Shown here piece by piece: positions 9,560 through 13,234 of a stretch of 64,000 nucleotides of DNA. The position numbers and the translations under genes were made by a program. A model generated the notes under the pieces. It saw only the letters and a program-made list of their open reading frames with translations, had not been told where the DNA came from and searched no databases. This stretch comes from Methanocaldococcus villosus KIN24-T80 (GTDB lineage Archaea; AGJL01; Methanococci; Methanococcales; Methanocaldococcaceae), in contig NZ_AQUK01000001.1 in assembly GCF_000371805.1 (NCBI RefSeq), positions 1,066,268-1,130,267 of the forward strand, read 5' to 3'. Numbering within the stretch: the stretch's first letter is position 1; every line of letters starts with the position of its first letter.

Positions 9560-9759
9560 TGGGTGAGATACCATGAAAGTAATAGAGTTCTTAAAAGGTA
9601 AGAAAGGGGCAATAGGTATAGGTACATTAATTATATTCATTGCTATGGTCTTAGTCGCTGCAGTAGCAGCAGCAGTACTCATAAATACAAGTGGGTTCTT
9701 GCAACAAAAAGCTATGGCTACAGGTAAGGAGAGTACAGAGCAAGTAGCTAGTGGATTAC
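9560..9759 (+). repeat. 200-bp perfect direct repeat, copy 1 (flaB1)
   Basis: Bases 9560-9759 are identical to 10262-10461, covering the SD, signal peptide, hydrophobic helix and the first part of the mature flagellin, including all silent positions. The boundaries are sharp (T/C mismatch before, T/A mismatch after). A second identical patch of 33 bp lies at 9826-9858 and 10525-10557. Confidence 0.93.
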
Positions 9760-10261: not shown

Positions 10262-10461
10262 TGGGTGAGATACCATGAAAGTAATAGAGTTCTTAAAAGG
10301 TAAGAAAGGGGCAATAGGTATAGGTACATTAATTATATTCATTGCTATGGTCTTAGTCGCTGCAGTAGCAGCAGCAGTACTCATAAATACAAGTGGGTTC
10401 TTGCAACAAAAAGCTATGGCTACAGGTAAGGAGAGTACAGAGCAAGTAGCTAGTGGATTAC
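10262..10461 (+). repeat. 200-bp perfect direct repeat, copy 2 (flaB2)
   Basis: This copy starts just before the flaB2 SD and ends in codon 63 of flaB2. flaB3 shares a shorter stretch of about 40 identical bases (around 11048-11089) in the region encoding the processing site and helix. Confidence 0.93.
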
Positions 10462-11732: not shown

Positions 11733-11767
11733 ATTTATTATTTTAAATATTTTTATAGGGGATTATT

Positions 11768-12360
11768 ATGAACATAAAAGATATTATTAACTCAATAAAA
11801 GAAAAACTATCCTCATTAAAAGGAATAAAAAAAAAGAAGAAGTAAAAACTGAAGAAATTTTACCAGAAGAAGAAATAGTTATTGAAGAAGATGTTGGTAA
11901 ATTTGAAGAGATTGAAAGAGCTATCAAGGAGTTAATGGAAACTTCTGAAAATTTAATGGCAAAAGTTAGTGATTTAGAATCAAGATTACCAAGATTAGAA
12001 TCTAGTATAAATGCACTTAGAAAGGAAAATGAAATGTTAAGAATTGAAATAGAAAAAATCAATGAAAGTTTACAAGATATTATGTCCCTATATGAAGTTG
12101 TATCAAATCAAATAAATCCATTTATAGGAGTTTCAAAAATTACAGCTACAAGTTTAGAAAAATTGGAAAGATTAGAAGCTGATTACAAAAAACTAAAAAA
12201 AACTTTGGAGGAGTTGACCAATGACCTGGTTGTACTTGGATCTCTCTACTTAAGGCAGTTAAATATCAATCTTGAGGATATCATAAAAGATGTTATTGAA
12301 GAAGAGCTTGTAAAAGCAATGTCAGGAGAGGATGAGCATGATACAAAAGACAATAAATGA
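11768..12360 (+). CDS. flaC: Archaellum protein FlaC, frameshifted at a poly-A run
   Basis: FlaC with FlaD/E forms the cytoplasmic ring around the archaellum motor in Euryarchaeota. ATG 11768 has a GGGGATT SD, but its frame stops after 25 codons at 11843. The rest of the protein continues in the -1 frame and is open to 12360. Joining them at the nine-A run (11827-11835) gives 197 aa, the usual size, with a coiled-coil middle (EIERAIKELMETSENL) and a FlaC/D/E-type tail. The run contains A AAA AAG (11830-11836) in the zero frame, a classic -1 slippery site. Alternatives are transcript slippage, a real mutation or an assembly error. A start at 11935 would drop the conserved acidic N-terminal segment and has no clear SD. 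Confidence 0.8.
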
Positions 12361-13234
12361 GCCTTCTATGGTTATATCTGAAGAAGAGTTTCTTACTGAA
12401 GATGAAATTGAAGAATATTTAGATAATCTTAGAGATAAGTTGCCTTCTTTCATTATAATCTTATTAAAAAATAATTTGAGAGGAAAGAGAGTTACGAAGA
12501 GACAGTTAGATAAAATAGTTGAAAGAGTTTCAGAAGTCCTTTCAAAAGGTAAAGAAGACAAAACTGAAGAGCTTTATAAAAAATTACAATCTCTTGAAGA
12601 GAAATTAGATACTATAATGAAATTAACTACTGTTGCAGTATCTACAAAGATCTCTGAAGAAGTGGAAGAAAAAGAAGAAATAAAAGAAGAGGTTATAAAA
12701 GAAAGAGAAGAAAAAGAAGAAACTAAAGAAGAGAAGGAAGAAGTTAAAGAAGAATTACCAACAATTGAAGAGAAAGAAGAAGAGAAAGAAGAGGAGCCTG
12801 AAATAAAAATAGAACCTGAAATAAAAGTAGAAGAAGTTAAAGAAGGTGAAGTTATGATTGAAGAAGAAAAGAAATATATATTGAATGATATTCCAGAAGA
12901 TGCTGTATCTATGGCATTAGCTTTTAAATGGTTAGAATTTCTTATAAATAGAGTAGGCATATCAAATTTGCCTGATATATTAGATTTTTATAATAAAATT
13001 GGATGGATATCTAGTAAGGTGGTATTAAAGTTATTAAAATTTGCAAAGAATATGAGAGTTATGGTTGATGAAAATATAAAAGTTAGAGATAAGCTAACTC
13101 CTAGTGAGCATATAATGTCATTAATGTATATTGAAAAATTAGCTGGAGCTAAAGTAGATCCTGAAACATTAGAAATGTTAGAATTGGAATTAAGAAGAAT
13201 AAAAAAATGGGTTGAAGAGTTAAAATACATCTAA
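12338..13234 (+). CDS. flaD: Archaellum protein FlaD
   Basis: FlaD is a cytoplasmic component of the archaellum motor ring and links it to the chemotaxis machinery (CheF binding in other Euryarchaeota). The 298-aa protein has an N-terminal helical part, a long Lys/Glu-rich linker (about 105-170), and a C-terminal FlaD/E domain (DAVSMALAFKWLEFLINRVG...GWIS) nearly parallel to FlaE. I chose ATG 12338 because GGAGAGG ends six bases before it; ATG 12332 is too close to that SD. It overlaps flaC by 23 bases. Confidence 0.93.
   Translation: MIQKTINEPSMVISEEEFLTEDEIEEYLDNLRDKLPSFIIILLKNNLRGKRVTKRQLDKIVERVSEVLSKGKEDKTEELYKKLQSLEEKLDTIMKLTTVAVSTKISEEVEEKEEIKEEVIKEREEKEETKEEKEEVKEELPTIEEKEEEKEEEPEIKIEPEIKVEEVKEGEVMIEEEKKYILNDIPEDAVSMALAFKWLEFLINRVGISNLPDILDFYNKIGWISSKVVLKLLKFAKNMRVMVDENIKVRDKLTPSEHIMSLMYIEKLAGAKVDPETLEMLELELRRIKKWVEELKYI
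12854..13234 (+). CDS. Possible short FlaD from an internal start
   Basis: Inside flaD and in frame, ATG 12854 is preceded by AAGGTGAA with a GTT spacer, as good an SD as any in the operon. Translation from it would give a 126-aa protein consisting only of the FlaD/E domain, the same architecture as FlaE. I recall that M. voltae flaD gives both a large and a roughly 15-kDa product. This is inference; the long form is also well supported. Confidence 0.5.
   Translation: MIEEEKKYILNDIPEDAVSMALAFKWLEFLINRVGISNLPDILDFYNKIGWISSKVVLKLLKFAKNMRVMVDENIKVRDKLTPSEHIMSLMYIEKLAGAKVDPETLEMLELELRRIKKWVEELKYI

Follow-up and report, generated by a model that had tools for sequence, protein, structure and literature searches.

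How does Methanocaldococcus villosus make FlaC, when the reading frame that opens its gene closes after 25 codons? We analyzed a stretch of 64,000 nucleotides (the window) from a genome of 1.25 Mb in two contigs, the main one of 1.24 Mb, with 29% G+C. In the window, the archaellum genes run in the order three archaellin genes, flaC, flaD, flaE and onward. The gene in question encodes a FlaC_arch domain and has archaellin genes upstream and Arch_fla_DE genes downstream, the flaB-C-D-E cluster, which identifies it as flaC (arlC). A search of solved structures with FlaC returned weak coiled-coil matches only. The first two archaellin genes share an identical N-terminal stretch of 62 residues (window positions 9573-9758 and 10275-10460) and then diverge, possibly a result of gene conversion. 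The features of the flaC locus are the following.

11757..11763, + strand: Shine-Dalgarno-like AGGGGAT 5′ of the flaC ATG (from sequence)
11768..11845, + strand: flaC zero-frame start, 25 codons and TAA (from sequence; third-position differences upstream of the run)
11791..12360, + strand: extent of the open −1 frame, with its first ATG/GTG/TTG only at 11935
11821..11824, + strand: AGGA 5′ of the A run, proposed as a stimulator in the initial annotation; not conserved
11827..11835, + strand: A9 run at which a slip is proposed, tandem heptamers A_AAA_AAA and, with G 11836, A_AAA_AAG (from sequence; sole A9 in the window)
11836..12360, + strand: body of FlaC (ArlC) in the −1 frame, 174 codons and stop (Pfam PF05377 FlaC_arch, E 2.2e-20; homologues)
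12324..12331, + strand: Shine-Dalgarno AGGAGAGG for flaD, inside the end of flaC (from sequence; overlap kept in relatives)
12338..13234, + strand: flaD (ArlD), probable start ATG 12338, alternative 12332 (Pfam Arch_fla_DE; start position kept throughout the genus)

From the ATG at 11768-11770, the zero frame encodes the peptide MNIKDIINSIKEKLSSLKGIKKKKK and stops at the TAA at 11843-11845. The Shine-Dalgarno sequence of flaC in relatives is AGGTGA or GGTGA at similar spacing. Across the A run, the zero-frame codons are ATA AAA AAA AAG; a slip back by one base at this run continues with GAA GAA GTA in a frame that stays open to the stop at 12358-12360. The position of the nine A's coincides exactly with the break. 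The initial annotation had described a 25-codon zero frame from ATG 11768 with FlaC in the −1 frame, and this is exact by sequence; nine A's at 11827-11835 followed by G 11836, placing A_AAA_AAG in register, were likewise confirmed.

The initial annotation had also asked for the A count in close relatives. A flaC-like gene is present in 25 of 36 genomes of the order, and we read the junction in 26 flaC loci. All 10 loci from Methanocaldococcus share a −1 break in one position, with a run of A9 in nine of them and A11 in the tenth. After the nine A9 runs, the next base is C in six loci, two of which are identical in protein, and G in three. In seven Methanococcaceae loci, the −1 break falls at an A10 run, and TAG comes directly after it. 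The same break at the same site thus occurs in 17 loci of two families, although loci within one family, which share ancestry, are not independent. In each of these 17, the slippery sequence, A_AAA_AAA_AA(G/C) or A_AAA_AAA_AAA, lies in the zero-frame register. The earlier claim that FlaC depends on a shift to the −1 frame at this run is supported. One further broken locus (L029) has A9 before TAG and is offset by the other step relative to the 17; it comes from a 64%-complete metagenome-assembled genome (MAG) that carries a second flaC copy with A10, and its offset may be an assembly error. Run length is A9 to A11 in all 18 broken loci. In the remaining eight, a Methanococcus-like clade of seven and one other locus (L026), flaC is in one frame and the A run is at most six, so run and break occur together, and a long run is absent wherever flaC is in one frame. 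On the FlaC tree, the broken and in-frame states need two changes, most simply an ancient break followed by two repairs. Judging from the Methanococcus-like relatives, flaC of the genetically tractable Methanococcus maripaludis is probably in one frame as well.

The two frames encode one protein. When the −1 step is applied, every product of a broken flaC aligns with in-frame FlaC through the junction, and the two overlapping frames together align end to end with in-frame homologues. For the Methanococcaceae there is no gap at all: IEEIKKK/IAFGKK (the slash marks the junction) aligns with IEEIKQKIKLGKK, and a longer alignment, MPNIAEIIEEIKKK followed across the junction by IAFGKKK against MPNISEIIEEIKNKIKLGKKK, is gapless as well. 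The break, its conservation and this collinearity can be read directly from the genomes. We then considered where differences between relatives fall by codon position. Among Methanococcaceae, they number 12/6/82 at positions 1/2/3 in the zero frame upstream of the run and 224/142/555 in the −1 frame downstream; the corresponding counts among Methanocaldococcus are 248/91/294 and 707/570/1141. The third position peaks in the zero frame upstream and in the −1 frame downstream, and therefore both parts are read as protein. The short zero-frame product is 14 to 37 codons in total among the loci and ends at varying places, and this speaks against a functional tail; the 25-residue product of M. villosus is probably a by-product.

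Could FlaC be made, or lost, in some simpler way? Homopolymers are error-prone, and the initial annotation had offered an A missing from the assembly as the rival explanation. This fails as a general cause, since 16 other loci share the same −1 break, several of them in single-contig genomes. A dead gene is no better: the −1 frame of FlaC is under selection and the remaining archaellum operon is intact. A sequencing error or a dead gene therefore has almost no weight, the least of the readings we considered. Phase variation would suit a homopolymer in a surface-motility gene, a class of gene typical of it (PMC3711429). In this reading, replication would alter the run length, flaC would be turned on in some cells and off in others, and the sequenced genomes would represent the off state. 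Each of the 18 loci whose run reaches nine A's or more is nevertheless out of frame, whereas free switching predicts about one-third in frame; if the genomes were independent samples, the chance of this outcome would be (2/3)^18, about 0.0007. Given that no in-frame locus has a long run, we rejected phase variation, which we consider highly improbable.

Internal or non-standard initiation would place the start of FlaC beyond the short ORF, in the FlaC frame itself, and make the short ORF a leader. Re-initiation is possible in principle in the Methanococcaceae, where an ATA codon in the FlaC frame shares bases with the TAG. However, no ATG, GTG or TTG occurs in the FlaC frame of the broken loci for 13 to 54 codons after the slip, and in two loci (L013 and L018) the first one comes only after the conserved AAANEELLAKI.ELESRFPKIEM block; ordinary internal initiation therefore cannot make these proteins. 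The broken loci also have no non-standard start codon in common, and at its N-terminus in-frame FlaC is collinear with the short ORF. With no start in register near the junction, internal starts were rejected; we regard this reading as quite unlikely, if a little less so than phase variation.

Programmed −1 recoding is thus very probably how flaC is expressed in M. villosus and its relatives; that the frame shift takes place in the cell, we infer from sequence. Translation would start at ATG 11768 and cover about 20 codons before the nine-A run. There, a fraction of the flow would enter the −1 frame and yield full-length FlaC (197 amino acids), and the remainder would stop after 25 codons. The shift could come about by the ribosome slipping back on A_AAA_AAA_AA(G/C), or by RNA polymerase adding an A, followed by standard translation. 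Most likely, its effect would be to set the amount of FlaC relative to the archaellins encoded upstream. FlaD may be affected by the shifting fraction too: in all the loci that we read, flaC and flaD overlap, with the flaD start lying ahead of the flaC stop and, in most cases, a Shine-Dalgarno sequence within this end of flaC. Throughout Methanocaldococcus, the flaD start is kept 20 bases before the flaC stop (12358-12360). Through this conserved overlap, the shift would possibly set the amount of FlaD as well.

Does the ribosome or the polymerase slip? We lean slightly to the ribosome, and both may act. The slippery heptamers are in register, and 17 of the 18 broken loci preserve the −1 relation. 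UUU was the sole type of tRNA-Lys found, leaving a single tRNA-Lys to read both AAA and AAG (36 tRNA matches, of which C1:1038290-1038395 and C1:400400-400508 were left untyped by ARAGORN); a sole tRNA-Lys UUU is a condition linked to slipping in Escherichia coli dnaX (PMC5009743, the Atkins review). What is missing is a stimulator of the dnaX type, an upstream Shine-Dalgarno sequence and/or a downstream structure. The AGGA upstream of the run, taken in the initial annotation for a stimulatory Shine-Dalgarno sequence, recurs in none of the nine further Methanocaldococcus loci and in just one of the seven Methanococcaceae loci, which does not bear out that role. Nor did we find a conserved structure downstream of the run; a CCUCC..GGAGG hairpin about 20 bases after it (z −2.3 to −3.8) occurs in three species only (L006, L007 and L008).

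Transcriptional slippage alone is a form of recoding in which the polymerase adds or drops A's along the A9 run, giving corrected messages that ribosomes translate in the usual way; Thermus thermophilus dnaX is the precedent, and we give this route at flaC somewhat less than an even chance. The run of at least nine A's in all 18 broken loci has the length at which bacterial polymerases slip efficiently, and T. thermophilus dnaX makes use of such a run (PMC5009743). The lack of a conserved ribosomal stimulator at flaC and the genome-wide avoidance of A9 fit this reading, and polymerase slippage would tolerate the other-step offset of the MAG copy. That copy counts against ribosomal recoding because a ribosomal −1 slip would not mend its offset. 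The exact A9 does not by itself favor the polymerase, since a fixed phase and the following G or C allow the run to change length only in threes. Slippage could also serve both offsets, and yet −1 is kept in 17 of 18 loci, an argument with less weight if added A's dominate, as in T. thermophilus. Polymerase slippage alone is further disfavored by the single tRNA-Lys and by the chlD genes of Methanococcus-like genomes, which break at A6 or A7; such runs are short for polymerase slippage and so favor the ribosome.

How unusual is an A9 run in these genomes? In the window, we observed a single A9 on both strands, that in flaC, against 16.8 ± 5.8 in dinucleotide shuffles, so A9/T9 is strongly avoided. 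As this one run also falls right at the frame break, and the break recurs across the order, chance is not enough to account for it; the scarcity of A9 speaks for programmed recoding, as does the presence of a second such break in chlD. The 1.24-Mb main contig holds four: flaC, the chlI/chlD junction, and two genes in one frame, glycosyltransferase-like and aldolase-like, which we named by reading their translations. At the chlI/chlD junction of this genome there is a −1 break at A9 then C (L066 1501-1509; L137, G000:C1:716361-716369). Across the order, 17 broken chlD loci show A9 then C in the codon phase seen at flaC, and one each has A11 and A10; the breaks at A6 or A7 are in five Methanococcus-like genomes. 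As a control, chlD is useful: conservation of its −1 break, in Methanocaldococcus among others, is already known, and in E. coli three cassettes from the family shifted at 10 to 63%, more with longer A runs (PMC3711429). In two relatives (L153, G017; L157, G027), chlI and chlD are fused in one frame with the A9 kept; there the −1 frame stops a few codons on, and slipping would give the short product, with roles reversed as between the dnaX genes. Among the A9 sites examined from this and five other Methanocaldococcus genomes, those in flaC and chlD were the only ones to separate two long frames. Two other loci drew our attention. In one (L191, G001:C1:1021796-1022086), three A9 runs recur every 141 bases between identical flanks; a long open frame lies opposite them, as in a gene with internal repeats. 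In a repeated, probably insertion-sequence-like element (L182 and L183, G010:C1:26392 and 28861), an A10 run marks the end of a 127-codon frame, from which a 59-codon frame continues at −1, possibly another recoding site.

Among known systems, flaC is closest to chlD (magnesium/cobalt chelatase; bacteria, Methanocaldococcus and Methanococcus), which has a −1 break at an A run and, in Methanococcales, the same A9 then C in the same codon phase. Unlike chlD, whose products are both large enzyme parts, flaC has a short product of only 14 to 37 residues, and whereas the chlD shift was measured with cassettes in E. coli (PMC3711429), that of flaC is predicted from sequence. With E. coli dnaX, flaC shares the A_AAA_AAG heptamer and the sole tRNA-Lys UUU. 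E. coli dnaX, however, has a stimulatory Shine-Dalgarno sequence and a hairpin, for which flaC shows no conserved counterpart, and its shift makes the short product, whereas in flaC it is the long product that needs the shift. T. thermophilus dnaX resembles flaC in its run of nine A's, thermophilic host and minimal signal; its long product is encoded in one frame, unlike that of flaC, and slippage at flaC is a candidate only. The archaeal parallel is fucA1 of Saccharolobus solfataricus, whose complete protein depends on −1 recoding at an A-rich slippery site. The fucA1 break is confined to two strains of a single species, close relatives having one A fewer and a full-length gene (PMC8211752), whereas that of flaC extends across two families.

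A 2021 review of archaeal recoding lists one reported −1 case, fucA1, besides viral genes and the suspected chlD (PMC8211752). Neither recoding review (PMC8211752; Atkins, PMC5009743) mentions flagellar genes, and searches of the open literature turned up no description of frameshifting in flaC. A tentative and rather doubtful extension is that the A9 break is a Methanococcales-wide regulatory cassette common to flaC and chlD, which would set the dose of the archaellum switch protein FlaC and, by translational coupling, of FlaD, and perhaps tune it to growth state or temperature, in genomes where A9 is otherwise avoided. FlaC is needed for archaella, since M. maripaludis with flaC deleted is non-archaellated (PMC4187195), a further point in favor of programmed recoding. 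In species with a broken flaC, the N-terminus of FlaC is easily misannotated. If true, flaC would be a strong further archaeal case of −1 recoding, in a chromosomal gene of the swimming machinery, required for archaella, across two families.
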